From an uncultured Bacteroidales bacterium (lineage in GTDB: Bacteria > Bacteroidota > Bacteroidia > Bacteroidales > TTA-H9), in NCBI GenBank assembly GCA_937981455.1, contig CALJNV010000140.1, positions 1-38,176 of the forward strand: a stretch of DNA of 38,176 nt. The letters run 5' to 3'. Under the pieces are notes generated by a model. The model saw only the letters and a list, made by a program, of their open reading frames with translations. It searched no databases and was not told the DNA's origin. The position numbers and the translations under genes were made by a program. This document shows positions 7,454 to 15,361 of the stretch, piece by piece; position 1 is the stretch's first letter, and each line of letters opens with the position of its first letter.

Positions 7454-8812
7454 TTATTCCTCGCTTACTACAGCCAGGGTATTTTTTACTATCCCTTTCT
7501 TTTTCCATTTGCCGGTTTTGTAATAAATGTAGCTAGCCGATACACCGCAAGACCAGGCAAGAGGTATGGCCCACCAGATACCTTTTTCACCCATAATGCC
7601 AGATAGGGCATAAGAAAGCGGTACCCGGATAAGCCACAAAGAAAAGAGCGTTATAAACATTGGTATCAACGTATCGCCCGCACCCCGCAATACGCCATTG
7701 ACGGTAAACATAGTAGTTAAAAGAAGATAAAATGAGGCCACAATCCTAAGGTAATCAACGCCTTTGCTTATTACAACGGGATCAGTGGTAAATATCAGCA
7801 TGAGCTGCCGACCAAAAACCCAAAAAATGAAAGTACCTGCGAGAGCCACCACAGCCGACATTTTAAGGGTAGCTCTGAGACCATTTTTCACACGGTCGGT
7901 GCGGCCAGCGCCCATATTCTGGCCGGTGAAAGAGGATAGAGCAGCAGAAAGATTCATGGCAGGCATGGTGGCAAAAGAGTCGATACGGCCAGCGGCTGAA
8001 TAAGCAGCTACGGTGTCGGTGCCAAAACGGTTTACAATGCTGTAAATAGCCATCATACCCAAAGAAAACACAGTATGTTGTACTCCGGAGGGAAGACCGA
8101 TTTGCAGGCTTCGACGCATGATGGCTTTATCGTAAGTAAATTTACGAAAACTCAGATTGATAAGCTTATGATTATGGTTGATCCACAATACCATGGTAAG
8201 AAAGGCTCCAGCCTGGGCAATAACCGTAGCAATAGCAGCCCCTTCTATACCCCATTTAAACACTAAAACGAATAAAAGGTCAAGGCCTATATTAACTACC
8301 GTAGAAATGATGAGAAACCACAAGGGGGTAGTGCTATCGCCAATGCCCCTAAGCAAAGATGTCATGCCATTAAATCCAAAGAAAAAAAGACTACCGCCCA
8401 TGTAAATGTGAAGGTAACTAACGGCATAGGGCAAAACCTCATCAGGGAGCCTTGTTAACCTGAGAATGGGCCGGCTTAGAGCTATGCCGAGCAGAGTAGT
8501 TATCAACCCTGACCAAAATAAAAAAATCCACATAGTATCCATGGAGACCTTCAATTTATCCATTTGTTTGGCTCCGAAATACTGAGAAATTATAATACTA
8601 AAACCCATTCCTATCCCTATGACAAGGGCCACAAACACGAAGATGAAAGGAAAAGAAGCACCCACAGCAGCCAGAGCCTCTTTTCCCACAAAATGTCCGA
8701 TAATGATACTGTCGACGATGTTGTAAAGTTGTTGAAATACATTACCGGCAAGCATGGGTATAGCGAATCGTAAAATAATTTTCCCTTCATGGCCTGTGGT
8801 TAAATCTTTCAT
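7454..8812 (-). CDS. MATE family efflux transporter
   Basis: 452 aa with ~12 TM helices; 'GHEGKIILRFAIPMLAGNVFQQLYNIVDSIIIGHFVGKEALAAVGASFP', 'GQNMGAGR'. Confidence 0.93.
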   Translation of the reverse strand: MKDLTTGHEGKIILRFAIPMLAGNVFQQLYNIVDSIIIGHFVGKEALAAVGASFPFIFVFVALVIGIGMGFSIIISQYFGAKQMDKLKVSMDTMWIFLFWSGLITTLLGIALSRPILRLTRLPDEVLPYAVSYLHIYMGGSLFFFGFNGMTSLLRGIGDSTTPLWFLIISTVVNIGLDLLFVLVFKWGIEGAAIATVIAQAGAFLTMVLWINHNHKLINLSFRKFTYDKAIMRRSLQIGLPSGVQHTVFSLGMMAIYSIVNRFGTDTVAAYSAAGRIDSFATMPAMNLSAALSSFTGQNMGAGRTDRVKNGLRATLKMSAVVALAGTFIFWVFGRQLMLIFTTDPVVISKGVDYLRIVASFYLLLTTMFTVNGVLRGAGDTLIPMFITLFSLWLIRVPLSYALSGIMGEKGIWWAIPLAWSCGVSASYIYYKTGKWKKKGIVKNTLAVVSEE

Positions 8813-8816
8813 TTTT

Positions 8817-9665
8817 TTAACTTCGAACGATTAGTTTTTGGTCGGCACAAAATAATTCTACTTTTAAAGCAGACAAAAGGTCGTTACCCATAATCCCATC
8901 GAGGGGAGGGAAACCCAACCGCAGGTAGGCATGGTTTACATTTTCTAAATCAATCAATTTACCCGAGAAATCATGCAAAACCACATGACCTATCTCCAAC
9001 GTATTAAAATTCACGTTGCCCAAAGGCGCATATTCATCTTTAACACCTTTGCAGGGTTCATCCACAGGCTCGAGAAGGTTTTCATCAAATTCAACAATTT
9101 GATGAAAACGGCGGCTATTAAAAATAGTGACGGTGGCTCCGGTGTCAATAAACATATTTACTTTTTTCCCCATGATTTTGATTTGAACAACCAGGTGAGA
9201 GGCACCGGGAACAACAGAGAGTGCCCGAAAACGCAAAGCACGTGAATTACCCAGACGGAGAAGCTGTTTTCGAAAGCTGATCAGGGACCCAGGCAAGGTG
9301 AGTAGATCCCCGCCCAACACACCATGCACGGGACCTTCAATAAGCCTACCGAAGAGCTGTTCCAGGAGGGTGAGATCCGACATTATAACCTCGTAATGAG
9401 GAATTTGAATCTTGCCTACGGTAAAACTTCTCACAGGCAAGACGTAGGCCTCAAAATTTTCGCCCATACCCATGGCATGAAAAGTCGGGTCCTGGTATGG
9501 AAACTTGGCGGCAAAATAATGAATACGACGTTGGCAAAACACGGTGTGGGATGCACCGGTATCAATAAGCATTCGAGCGGGCAACCCGTTAATCTGTATA
9601 TTGACGAGTTGATGAACGCCCCGATCTTCTTTAACGTAAAACACCGGCAATACAGATTTTGCCAT
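8817..9665 (-). CDS. Tandem retropepsin-like aspartyl protease
   Basis: Two parallel active-site segments, 'VNIQINGLPARMLIDTGASHTVFCQRRIH' and 'VQIKIMGKKVNMFIDTGATVTIFNSRRFH', each followed by a G-x-x-G-x-D motif ('GVLGGDLL', 'GIMGNDLL'). Confidence 0.85.
   Translation of the reverse strand: MAKSVLPVFYVKEDRGVHQLVNIQINGLPARMLIDTGASHTVFCQRRIHYFAAKFPYQDPTFHAMGMGENFEAYVLPVRSFTVGKIQIPHYEVIMSDLTLLEQLFGRLIEGPVHGVLGGDLLTLPGSLISFRKQLLRLGNSRALRFRALSVVPGASHLVVQIKIMGKKVNMFIDTGATVTIFNSRRFHQIVEFDENLLEPVDEPCKGVKDEYAPLGNVNFNTLEIGHVVLHDFSGKLIDLENVNHAYLRLGFPPLDGIMGNDLLSALKVELFCADQKLIVRS
9078..9109. repeat. Perfect 14-bp inverted repeat with 4-nt loop inside the retropepsin-like CDS
   Basis: GTTTTCATCAAATT-CAAC-AATTTGATGAAAAC read directly from the + strand. 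Confidence 0.95.
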
Positions 9666-9680
9666 AAGTTGAGTATTGGG

Positions 9681-11339
9681 TTAGTAAACGAAACTACTGC
9701 CGCCCAAAAATTCTCTCAAAATGCTAGTGGGAGGAATCTCGCGTGCCGAAATAGGCTGGAAATAAGACAAAAACTTAAGCAAGCGATTTGCTTCTGCGTA
9801 TTCTGGCTCACATTCTGGAATCGTTTTAAGCAATGGCTCGGCATAAGTTTTAAGCACAGCCAGTTCATATAAAAGCGCAGAGTTAAACATTACTTCCGCA
9901 TTTTCCTGATAAGGAAAGATATATTTTTCTTCACCATTACGTACACTGGGCCAGCGACGAAGAGTTTCAAGGGCTGAGTAGCCTCTAAATCGATAGTCGC
10001 GCACCATACGCCGAATGAGTCGATTATCAGTGGAATGAATAGGATTTTGTGCATCAATAGAAATCTGGGTGAGCGCTGATACAAAAATGCCAAATTTACA
10101 GGATGGTTCAATAGCCGGGGTGAGCTCTGGATTCAACCCATGAATACCCTCTACCACCAAAATCTGATCCTTGGTCATGCGAACCGGTGCTGGAGATAAA
10201 CTTCTTTTACCGGTTGTAAAATCGAATCGAGGCAACCTTACCTCTTTGCCTTGCATGAGATCATTGATATTTTGATTAAACAGAGCAATATCAATGGCTT
10301 TGATGGTTTCGAAATCGTAGTCTCCGTTTTCGTCGCGAGGCGTAAGCTCGCGATCCACGAAATAATTATCGAGCGAAATCTGCATAGGCCTTAGGCCCAA
10401 AACCATAAGTTGTATAGATAAGCGCTTGCTGAATGTGGTCTTGCCCGACGATGAGGGTCCAGAAATAAGTATCACTCTTACGTGATCCCGCATCTTATAA
10501 ATTTTATCAGCAATGCGCGCAATGCGTTTTTCATGCAGGGCTTCGGCAATTTTTATCAAGTCAGTGTCGCGCTTTTCCCGGGTGGCCTCATTCAAATCGC
10601 CCACATAAGCGGCCCCCAAAATATTAACCCATTTTCGATGTTCGCGAAATACTTTGAATAATTTAGGCTGATAGTAAACTTTATCGGGTATTTCAAAGGT
10701 TTCGGGATCGGGAACCCTGAGGAGAATACCCTTGTAATAGGGTTGAAGATCAAAACGGGTGAGATAGCCAGTTGAGGGTACCAGGTAACCATAAAAATAA
10801 TTGATGTAACCGTTCATTCCATATACCGAGGTGTACATCTCATGTCGCAACCTGAAAAGTTTAGCCTTTTCGAAATGGCGGTGTTTTTCAAACAATTCAG
10901 CGGCTTCAGGTGTAGGGATTTCATTCCGGGTAAATGGAAGATCTTGCTTTACAAGCTCTTCCATCTTCGATTTCAATTCATAAATCAAGTCGGCATTTAC
11001 CTCGGCACCATCCACCTCGGCATACCATCCCTTGCTTACACCATGCTCGATGCGCAAAAAAGCTTGTGGTTTGAGTTCCCTCAAAGCAGCGTAAAGCAAA
11101 AAAGCAACACTGCGTACATACATCCGGTAACCAATCGGATGCGTGTAATCTATGAACAAAATGGTCTTGGGTTTGTAGAGATCGTAATTGAGCTCTCTTA
11201 ATTTGTTGTTGACCAAGGCACCCAAGACGGGATAACGGGTTTCAATCTTTAAATCTTGTGCAATTTCACGCAAAGTGGTTGCTCTGGGATAAGATTTGCG
11301 TACATTGTTGTTGATACAAATTATTTCTATGGTGCTCAT
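9681..11339 (-). CDS. Nucleoside (uridine-type) kinase with N-terminal TGS/ThrRS-like domain
   Basis: 'VILISGPSSSGKTTFSKRLSIQLMVLGLRPMQISLDNYFVDRELTPRDENGDYDFE' kinase core; N-terminal 'TTLREIAQDLKIETRYPVLGALVNNKLRELNYDL' TGS-like. Confidence 0.9.
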   Translation of the reverse strand: MSTIEIICINNNVRKSYPRATTLREIAQDLKIETRYPVLGALVNNKLRELNYDLYKPKTILFIDYTHPIGYRMYVRSVAFLLYAALRELKPQAFLRIEHGVSKGWYAEVDGAEVNADLIYELKSKMEELVKQDLPFTRNEIPTPEAAELFEKHRHFEKAKLFRLRHEMYTSVYGMNGYINYFYGYLVPSTGYLTRFDLQPYYKGILLRVPDPETFEIPDKVYYQPKLFKVFREHRKWVNILGAAYVGDLNEATREKRDTDLIKIAEALHEKRIARIADKIYKMRDHVRVILISGPSSSGKTTFSKRLSIQLMVLGLRPMQISLDNYFVDRELTPRDENGDYDFETIKAIDIALFNQNINDLMQGKEVRLPRFDFTTGKRSLSPAPVRMTKDQILVVEGIHGLNPELTPAIEPSCKFGIFVSALTQISIDAQNPIHSTDNRLIRRMVRDYRFRGYSALETLRRWPSVRNGEEKYIFPYQENAEVMFNSALLYELAVLKTYAEPLLKTIPECEPEYAEANRLLKFLSYFQPISAREIPPTSILREFLGGSSFVY

Positions 11340-11343
11340 AGCT

Positions 11344-14202
11344 TTACTTTAAAATGCATTGTAGAAACTGACCGGTATAACTCTCGGGATGGCGAGCAAT
11401 TTCTTCGGGGGTACCGGCAGCTACAATTCTACCCCCTTTTTGCCCGCCTTCGGGGCCAATGTCGATTATGTAATCGGCTACTTTAATCACTTCCATGTTA
11501 TGTTCAATCACCAAAATAGTATTCCCCCTGTCGGTTAGGGTTTGCAATACTTGAAGCAATACATTTACATCTTCGAAATGAAGACCTGTGGTAGGTTCAT
11601 CGAGAATATAAAGTGTTTTTCCTGTATCGCGACGCGAAAGTTCAGCCGCCAGCTTCACTCTCTGGGCTTCACCCCCTGAAAGGGTAGTCGACGACTGCCC
11701 AAGCGTAATGTAACCTAAGCCCACATCCTGCAAGGTTTTAATTTTTTGAACGATTGAAGGAATATTTTCAAAAAACTCCACGGCCTGATCGATGGTCATG
11801 TTCAGCACATCGTTGATACTTCTTCCCTTGTATCGAACTTCGAGTGTTTCCCGATTGTATCGTTTACCCTGACAGGTTTCGCAAGGCACCATCACATCTG
11901 GAAGAAAATTCATTTCTATAACCCTAAGTCCGGCTCCACCACAGGTTTCGCATCGACCTCCCTTAACATTAAATGAAAATCGACCGGGTTTATAACCCCG
12001 TATTTTGGCTTCAGGCAAAGAGGCATACAATTGACGAATCTCATCGAAAACTTTAGTATACGTGGCTGGGTTGCTTCTAGGGGTTCGACCAATAGGGGTT
12101 TGATCGACCTCAATAACTTTATCGATGTATTTAAGACCCTCCAGAGAATCATAGGGCAGGGCCGCTTTTTGGGAACGATAAAGTTCACGACTCAGTATGG
12201 GGTATAACGTTTCATTAATAAGGCTCGATTTTCCGCTGCCCGATACGCCTGTAACGCAGACAAAAAGTCCCAGCGGCAAATCCAGCGTAACATTTTTTAA
12301 GTTGTGTCCTCTTGCGCCTTTCAGGATAAGGTGCTTTCCATTTCCCTTACGTCGGGTAGAAGGTATAGGAATACGTTTTTCGCCCCGCAGATATTGACAA
12401 GTTAAAGAATTTTGTGTGAGCAATTGTTCAGGGGTGCCAATGGCCACAATACGTCCCCCATGAATACCTGCACCAGGGCCCATATCAATTACATAATCCG
12501 CAGAACGGATCATCTCTTCGTCATGCTCCACCACGATTACTGAATTACCACTGTCGCGCAGGGCTTTCAATGAATCGATCAACCGATGATTGTCGCGTTG
12601 ATGAAGGCCAATACTTGGTTCATCGAGGATATAAAGTACGCCCGTAAGTTGACTCCCAATCTGCGTAGCCAGGCGTATTCGTTGGCTCTCACCTCCCGAA
12701 AGACTTCGAGCGGTTCTGTTGCACGATAAATAACCCAATCCAACATTGAGCAGAAACTTTAGCCGCGATCGTATTTCTCGAATAATCTCTTTCCCTATAA
12801 TAAATTCTCTATCACTGAGGCGTTCTGGCAATTCTGCAAACCATGCGTCAAGGCTCTCCAAATCCATTTGGGCCAACTCGGCAATATTCTTTTCAGCTAT
12901 TTTATACCATAGAGATTCTTTTTTAAGCCGCGTACCTTCGCACTCAGGGCACTCTACTTGATTGATAAAACCGCTTACCCATTTGCGAATGTTAGCCGAC
13001 TCGCCTTCTTCATATTGATTCAAAATAAAATTCACCAGTCCGTCGAAATCGAGGCGATAGGTATTTACAACCCCAGCGTATTCTTTTTGAAAAACAAAAC
13101 CTTCACTACTGCCATAAAGTATAGTGTTGATGGCTTCTTCTGGCAACTCCCCTACTGGGGTGTCGAGGGTACAGCCGTAACGTTTTACAATACCTTCGAA
13201 TTGGGTAAAAATATAGTTGTTTTTAAATTCACCCGCCGGAGCGATGCCTCCTTTGCGAATACTTAGCCTGGGGTCGGGAAAGACCTTTTGAAGATCAATT
13301 TCGCTGATTTGCCCCAATCCCCTGCATCGTGGACAGGCACCATAAGGCGAATTAAAAGAAAAGGTATTAGGCTCGGGTTCTTCGTAGGCTAAGCCCGTTT
13401 CAGGGTCCATTAAATTGCGGCTTAAATGGCGCAGCTCACGCGGGTCATCTTTCAATAGAATTATACTTCCCTTGCCTTGCCTCATGGCAGTATCTATTGA
13501 GCGCACCAATCGATCGTGATTCTCCTCATTGATCACTATCCTATCGACCACCAACTCGATATCGTGAACTTTGTATCGATCGAGCTGACGAACATCACTG
13601 AGTGATTTCAAATCTCCGTCAACCCTTACCCGGGTATATCCCTGCTTTCGCAGGTTATCGAAAACTTCACGGTAGTGCCCTTTGCGTCCTTTAACTAAAG
13701 AGGCTAAAATATAGAGTTTCTCACCGGCATATTCTCTTTCAATTAGTTCCCTGATTTCTTTCTCAGAATATTTAATCATAGGCTTTCCGCTCAGATACGA
13801 ATAAGCCGTGGCTATGCGAGCAAACAACAATCGCAAAAAGTCGTATATTTCAGTAATGGTGCCAACGGTAGAACGTGGATTGGTAACCGTAGTCTTTTGA
13901 TCAATAGAGATTACGGGGCTCAGGCCGGTTATTTTATCTACATCGGGCCTCTCAAGATTTCCAATAAATTGCCGGGCATAGGCCGAGAAGGTTTCCATAT
14001 ATCGGCGTTGTCCTTCAGCATAAATCGTATCGAAGGCCAGCGAGGACTTACCGCTGCCACTCAAACCTGTAAAAACCACCAGCCTGTTGCGAGGTATGAC
14101 CACATCAATGTTTTTCAGGTTGTGAACCCGAGCCCCTTCCACCCTGAGTTCTTCCTGCATCAATACTTCAGCGTGCAATTCAACAGTATCTTTCACACTC
14201 AT
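11344..14202 (-). CDS. uvrA: Excinuclease ABC subunit A
   Basis: Two ABC ATPase domains ('[14 protein letters not shown]', '[14 protein letters not shown]'; '[12 protein letters not shown]', '[12 protein letters not shown]'), zinc-binding CxxC motifs, 952 aa. Confidence 0.98.
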
Positions 14203-15188
14203 TTCGATGTATCCACCTCATTAACTGACTCCCTGAGCAGGGCATCGTAATCGTTATACTTACTTGTTGCTATTTTTATTGTATAAACTTTTCCAGATTT
14301 TACTACAAGTGCAGTATCGCGAATCCAAGGATTCAATTCTCGTAAAATACGGTAATTGATTCCTTGTTTACGAGACCATTCTACCAAATTTGGTATATTT
14401 TCCGAAACAGTTACTTCTTTTATGGGAAGTCTTGGATACAAATCTTCCTTGCGCAGCACATACCCATATCGTTGAGGATGTTCGAAGATGAGTTTGAATG
14501 CCAAAATCCTGAAAACATAACGCGAAGTTTCTGGATTCATATACATTTCATAGTAATTGGATGTTTTTTGGGTTCCTACAATGCGATCCATACGCCCCAT
14601 ACCCCCATTAAAGGCAGCAGCGGCAGTGGTCCAACTGCCGTATTTTTGGTAAGCTTTTTTCAAAAACTTACAAAAAGCCTGGGTTGCTTTTTCAAGATGA
14701 TAGCGTTCGTCAATCTGAGGATTAACCTCAAGCCCGTATTCTTTAGCTGTTTCAGGCAGAAACTGCCAATAGCCTGCTGCACCCGCAGGGGAAACATCGT
14801 GTAAAAAACCACTCTCAGCCAATACCAGATACTTAAAATCTACAGGAACACCTTCACGCTTGAGTATAGGTTCAATGACAGGAAAAAATCGATGCGCACG
14901 TTTAAAAAGTATCAACGATTGACTGTGCCAATAAGTATTTATGGTTAGCTCCCTGTCAAGGGACTCACGAACATAAAAAAGGTTGAGGGGAACATTTTCG
15001 CCTGCAAACGACATTTTTCGAGGTAAAGGGACTGCCACTGTGGCAGCACCGGAACGTTTCATAAAGTCATCGTCGAAAGGTTCTGCAGTAAAATGCCAGG
15101 CAGCAAAAACAAGGATTACCAATAAAATGGCAAGATGAGCTAATAAAAGAACCCGATATTTTTTCTTAAAATCGAATAATTTTCTCAT
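14199..15188 (-). CDS. Membrane-anchored lytic transglycosylase (SLT domain)
   Basis: 'LAESGFLHDVSPAGAAGYWQFLPETAKEYGLEVNPQIDERYHLEKATQAFCKFL' SLT motif. ATG at 15188 preferred; 4-nt ATGA overlap with the uvrA start. Confidence 0.9.
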   Translation of the reverse strand: MRKLFDFKKKYRVLLLAHLAILLVILVFAAWHFTAEPFDDDFMKRSGAATVAVPLPRKMSFAGENVPLNLFYVRESLDRELTINTYWHSQSLILFKRAHRFFPVIEPILKREGVPVDFKYLVLAESGFLHDVSPAGAAGYWQFLPETAKEYGLEVNPQIDERYHLEKATQAFCKFLKKAYQKYGSWTTAAAAFNGGMGRMDRIVGTQKTSNYYEMYMNPETSRYVFRILAFKLIFEHPQRYGYVLRKEDLYPRLPIKEVTVSENIPNLVEWSRKQGINYRILRELNPWIRDTALVVKSGKVYTIKIATSKYNDYDALLRESVNEVDTSK

Positions 15189-15302
15189 AAAACTCTTATA
15201 AATCGCAACACAGGTCAAAAAAAAGCTTTGCAAAATTACACCATATTACTGCAAGCAGAAGAACCCATATGGGGATAAAACCTATATGCAAGCCTGAACT
15301 AC

Positions 15303-15338
15303 AAAGAGAAAACAGCCGGAATATGGCATCTCCGGCTG
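15303..15338 (-). terminator. Intrinsic terminator downstream of clpC
   Basis: On the minus strand: CAGCCGGA-GATGCCATAT-TCCGGCTG followed by TTTTCTCTTT, beginning ~24 nt after the clpC stop. Confidence 0.8.
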
Positions 15339-15361
15339 CAGCTCAAAGAGGTTGGACCCTA

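Follow-up and report, generated by a model that had tools for sequence, protein, structure and literature searches.

A single-chain, two-domain retropepsin-like protein from a Bacteroidales bacterium, encoded by a gene best read as duplicated and fused in place

The window, which is the whole stretch of 38,176 nucleotides analysed here from an uncultured Bacteroidales bacterium, carries a gene for one chain of 282 amino acids with two DTG sites, and this raises the question of whether the two halves of the chain form one aspartic protease and how they came to be joined. Pepsin is thought to have originated by duplication and fusion of a gene for a half-size homodimeric protease, and whether retropepsins or pepsins came first is debated (PMC2761423). 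The open reading frame was found at 8817..9665 on the minus strand and starts with ATG; an earlier sequence-only reading had placed it correctly but gave no strand. The N-terminal retropepsin-like half (residues 1-141; 9243..9665, minus strand) and the C-terminal half (residues 142-282; 8820..9242, minus strand) showed scores of 151 and 148 bits, respectively, against a profile built from single-domain relatives. The first DTG codons (Asp35-Thr36-Gly37) lie at 9555..9563 and the second (Asp174-Thr175-Gly176) at 9138..9146, both on the minus strand.

As evident from the alignment of the two halves with each other, the protein is internally duplicated: 31 of the 102 residues in the local alignment were identical (30%) with a score of 98, and the shuffled controls gave a mean of 28 and a maximum of 48, with 0/2000 reaching the observed score. 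PF13650 (Asp_protease_2) matched two stretches of the chain (63.8 bits against a cut-off of 24.3; whole-protein E 2.5e-17), as did RVP PF00077 (39.5 bits against a cut-off of 20.7; E 7e-10), which bore out the proposal of an internally duplicated single-chain retropepsin-like protein. The two motif copies around the DTG sites quoted in that proposal, VNIQINGLPARMLIDTGASHTVFCQRRIH and VQIKIMGKKVNMFIDTGATVTIFNSRRFH, were exact in the sequence, as were the two hydrophobic-Gly-x-D-L-L copies, GVLGGDLL in the N half and GIMGNDLL in the C half. DTGA was present in both halves, and both contained the DTG/DSG motif and the hydrophobic-hydrophobic-Gly psi-loop element that define the retropepsin-like clan AA. 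Additionally, the C-terminal half has kept the D-L-x-x-V-N-x-x-Y motif found in the single-domain relatives. The NCBIfam model TIGR02281 (clan_AA_DTGA) scored 45.4 bits, below its cut-off of 57.95, and the Pfam search at E up to 1 gave no match of the fused protein to PF00026 (pepsin family A1).

The fused gene was present in 9/9 genomes examined from the host's family, so the frame is neither a chance product nor an assembly artefact; the shuffled controls and the purifying selection on the gene also rule this out. Horizontal import was ruled out by a GC of 0.448 and a GC3 of 0.442, which resemble those of the neighbouring genes, and by the conserved locus. In the window's own genome, an assembly that is 65% complete and comprises 221 contigs, the only two PF13650 matches both fell within the fused gene, and at E 0.01 no further gene of this 65% complete assembly matched. 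No hydrophobic or signal-like N-terminal segment was found in the fused protein, whereas the secreted two-domain relatives have one; judged from the sequence, the protein is probably cytoplasmic, as had been suggested before.

We found Asp35 and Asp174 to be invariant in 12/12 fused cytoplasmic homologues; the routine loss of one Asp among homologues, which the sequence-only reading had named as evidence that would speak against it, was thus not observed. The N-half motif was DSG instead of DTG in 6/9 members of the host family, and DCG occurred in one distant homologue; the Asp was always kept in the host family, and the second DTG was invariant in alignment A1. A Thr-to-Cys change with the Asp kept was seen in one half of the two-domain proteins at L104:5080-5940 (+) and L110:247-1518 (+). 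Both halves are under purifying selection, with dN of 0.13-0.20, dS of 1.1-2.5 and dN/dS of about 0.1 per half, these ratios being rough, as they come from two measurable pairs with dS near saturation. An inactive scaffold or binding protein, in which the fold was retained and no protein is cut, would accommodate the DSG and DCG variants of the N half, and sequence motifs by themselves are no proof of catalysis. The constancy of both Asp residues, the retention of the single Asp in all single-domain relatives examined and the strong selection on both halves argue against such a loss of function, which we consider improbable. DSG is, moreover, a usual variant among active pepsin-like enzymes.

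Outside the fused cases, the homologue was nearly everywhere in Bacteroidia a protein of about 145 aa that has a single domain and one DTGA. Among 80 loci from named genomes, 74 carried such a single-domain gene and 6 a fused one; in the survey of the class, 158/395 genomes gave a match and, among the matches listed, only that of the window's own genome spanned both halves. This comparison of one versus two DTG copies in Bacteroidota, which had been proposed from the sequence, yielded mostly single-domain proteins and a few cytoplasmic fused ones, and the latter were also present in two further families of the order (G041/G247; G068). Unfused tandem pairs, which would represent an intermediate stage, were absent from the loci examined. 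The three genomes that had two matches or a long frame (L139-L141) turned out to have single-domain genes. We also observed a protein of 415 aa (L113:1149-2396, +) in which one retropepsin-like domain is joined to an unrelated C-terminal region; the latter contains HDYG in each of two similar repeats and looks like DUF1599.

Chains with two such domains are less unusual in Bacteroidota than the sequence-only reading had implied, since secreted DTG/DTG forms are common and there is a solved structure, 9iy9, of an exported Bacteroides fragilis protein that contains two retropepsin-like domains. The secreted two-domain proteins are about 315-425 aa long, mostly DTG/DTG, and common in the order (L105-L109, L111, L112); apart from PDB 9iy9, they seem little described. 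The literature searched contained no papers that deal with retropepsin-like proteins of Bacteroidota or with 9iy9.

On the minus strand, the fused gene is preceded by an SLT lytic transglycosylase gene (14199..15233; PF01464), which is the first of a tight cluster with the same order in relatives, uvrA (11344..14202; NCBIfam UvrA equivalog) and a gene for a uridine-kinase-like protein of 552 aa (9681..11339; PRK/uridine kinase match), which ends 15 nt upstream of the protease gene, and it is followed after 4 nt by a MATE efflux transporter gene (7454..8812; TIGR00797). The gaps in this order range from -4 to 15 nt, and the cluster is therefore probably one operon. A terminator-like stem-loop at 15312-15339 (-), between a Clp-type chaperone gene and the SLT-to-MATE cluster, is consistent with a separate operon. 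The cluster order was kept in the host-family loci examined, except for MATE in one genus, and the uridine-kinase-like upstream neighbour was common to all of them.

In other genomes, both the single-domain and the fused protease genes have uvrA and the SLT gene upstream; in G068, there is an overlap of 4 nt between uvrA and the fused gene. The single-domain genes of other families were found less than 200 nt after a LOG-family gene (46 loci) or after a malate dehydrogenase gene (16 loci), and some of the LOG-linked loci had uvrA and then SLT farther upstream. Across L029-L102 and L115-L120, this pairing was conserved, the single-domain gene coming directly after a LOG-family (PF03641) gene in most loci or after a malate dehydrogenase gene in the 16 others named above. 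Given the SLT-uvrA neighbourhood that single-domain and fused genes have in common, the most plausible reading of the fused gene is that a retropepsin gene was duplicated and fused in place. The partner genes, uvrA, uridine-kinase-like and MATE for the fused form and LOG or malate dehydrogenase for the single form, point to some general role in the cytoplasm.

A tree of 91 domains was used to place the two halves. The N halves of the host family grouped in one clade (99/95) and the C halves in a second (100/98), and the fusion is therefore older than the radiation of the host family. The N and C clades were not sisters in the best tree, so that a fusion of two diverged paralogues is possible as the source of the halves; a joint clade was not rejected (AU p 0.225), and a tandem duplication within the lineage is likewise possible. 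The tree separated the fused forms of the host family (f1) from those of f34 and f61, and shared ancestry of the three was not rejected by AU tests for the N halves (p 0.243) or the C halves (p 0.285). On these AU results, which allow common N and C halves, at least two fusions are likely, one cytoplasmic and one secreted; the secreted two-domain proteins of Bacteroidota probably come from another duplication.

The N half was modelled alone with AlphaFold from an alignment of 48 rows, which gave a contiguous domain with a pLDDT of 84 and a pTM of 0.77. The best PDB match of this model was Rickettsia APRc (5c9f/5c9d), with a TM of up to 0.63 on the query and 0.72 on the target, followed by EIAV protease and Ddi1; the N half alone is thus predicted to adopt a retropepsin fold. 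The full chain was modelled from a fused-only alignment of seven rows, as MAFFT had spread the single-domain rows of a mixed alignment over both halves and that alignment was dropped. This model was compact, with a complete strand pattern in each half, a pLDDT of 86.5 and a pTM of 0.86, and its low-confidence stretches lay around residues 50-70 and 200-215. In a fold search with the full chain, the best matches (9iy9, pepsins and tethered HIV proteases) reached a query TM of only 0.17-0.30 with an rmsd of 14-24 Å, and the two lobes of the seven-row model together could not be superposed in sequence order on either pepsin or tethered HIV protease; the model therefore does not confirm a canonical cleft in which the DTG loops face each other.

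Several single-domain viral or phage retropepsins aligned across both halves of the full-chain model over 263-283 columns with a target TM of 0.44-0.54, so that parts of both halves are needed to form one lobe, and the model seems to swap segments between the lobes. Taken at face value, this would describe a bilobed protein in which the chain crosses over and each lobe combines the leading part of one half with the trailing part of the other, with both Asp residues catalytic and a topology unlike that of pepsin; the failed sequence-ordered alignment to pepsin and the coincidence of the low-confidence stretches with the expected lobe crossing sites fit such an arrangement. The alignment had only seven rows, however, the internal repeats blur contacts within and between halves for AlphaFold, and the N half modelled alone was an ordinary contiguous domain; the swap may therefore be an artefact of the repeat, and we regard the exchanged arrangement as unlikely. 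Its fuller version, a bilobed aspartic protease with exchanged lobe segments and a non-pepsin topology that arose by an in-place duplication independent of that of pepsin, is a long shot. The fused chains could also pair with each other, N half with N half and C half with C half, to give two active sites per dimer. Both halves have homologues that are expected to form homodimers, but the halves have diverged consistently into two clades, a single chain gave one compact model with a pTM of 0.86, and the two DTG motifs of one chain are enough for one site; we find this pairing very unlikely.

We favour the reading, with a probability of roughly 0.7, that the gene encodes a fused retropepsin derived from an in-place duplication, whose halves correspond to the two subunits of a homodimer and each contribute one Asp and one flap to a shared cleft. 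The protein would most likely be a single-chain pseudodimeric aspartic endopeptidase of the cytoplasm, with its activity, substrate and cleft being what we infer. On this reading, a Bacteroidales gene for a cytoplasmic, single-domain retropepsin-like protein would have been duplicated and fused in place, the two halves of one chain would stand in for the two subunits, and Asp35 of the N half and Asp174 of the C half would each supply one catalytic Asp to an intramolecular cleft. Each half would also place a flap over this common cleft. The flap is probably the Gly-rich segment about 30 residues past each DTG; in the N half, we placed it at residues 62-72 (FHAMGMGENFE; 9450..9482, minus strand) because of the conserved Gly-rich segment at this distance and the low model confidence nearby. 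For renin, HIV protease and the bacterial pepsins, an Ala after DTG has been linked to near-neutral activity (PMC2761423). APRc, which has DTGA and dimerises, is most active at pH 6 (PMC4140852). Because Ala follows each DTG here as well, proteolysis with a near-neutral pH optimum may be expected, presumably of a specific cytoplasmic substrate. The fusion could have brought obligate assembly and left the lobes free to diverge, which would allow asymmetric substrates to be read.

The fused form is not a new kind of protein, as two-domain relatives in Bacteroidota are already known, and the main interest is the traceable transition from single to fused. The gene parallels, in bacteria, the step thought to have given pepsin. 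Single and fused forms occur at a shared locus in one order, with halves that are 30% identical, and the transition is thereby open to direct study: the dimer and the fused enzyme can be compared, and the fused form can be split, to learn the effects of fusion and lobe divergence. If the favoured reading is true, bacteria gain a cytoplasmic, single-chain aspartic protease that is not a pepsin.

To place the fused protein among known systems, we compared it with its nearest counterparts. The single-domain Bacteroidota proteins (PF13650/PF13975, about 145 aa) belong to the same domain family, have no apparent signal peptide and, in a share of loci, have SLT-uvrA upstream like the fused gene; they differ in that each chain has a single domain with one DTG and in that the gene usually directly follows a LOG-family or malate dehydrogenase gene, not a uridine-kinase-like one. 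The RVP domain of Ddi1/Ddi2 was the best profile match of the single-domain family among solved structures, with human Ddi2 matched across the whole domain (E 1.3e-10). In Ddi1/Ddi2, the RVP domain is joined to ubiquitin-related domains. In contrast to the fused protein, these proteins are eukaryotic and dimeric with one RVP domain per chain (PMC2761423). Homodimeric retropepsins (MEROPS A2 type) have one lobe and one Asp per chain, whereas the fused protein has two and falls outside that type. APRc (RC1339) of Rickettsia conorii (5c9b/5c9d/5c9f), a membrane-anchored protein, is likewise bacterial, carries DTGA and was the best structural match to the N half. It differs in being a single-domain homodimer (PMC4140852). 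RimB and RloA of Pseudomonas are also bacterial retropepsin-like proteases, RimB being cytosolic, but they are single-domain homodimers that cut polyglutamate (PMC11957791, PMC12239564), and their Pfam family was absent from the Pfam matches of the fused protein. 9iy9 and the secreted Bacteroidota proteins resemble the fused protein in having two retropepsin-like domains per chain, usually DTG/DTG, but they have a signal-like N terminus and were distant in the domain tree. The family A1 pepsins, including the bacterial shewasins, also have one chain with two lobes and two DTG-type motifs, and bacterial A1 members are predicted to be intracellular (PMC2761423). The A1 lobes are alike only at the psi-loops (PMC2761423), whereas the similarity between the halves of the fused protein extends over 102 residues. 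The fused protein is therefore pepsin-like in plan, with two Asp residues in one chain, but not a member of A1 by the PF00026 profile.
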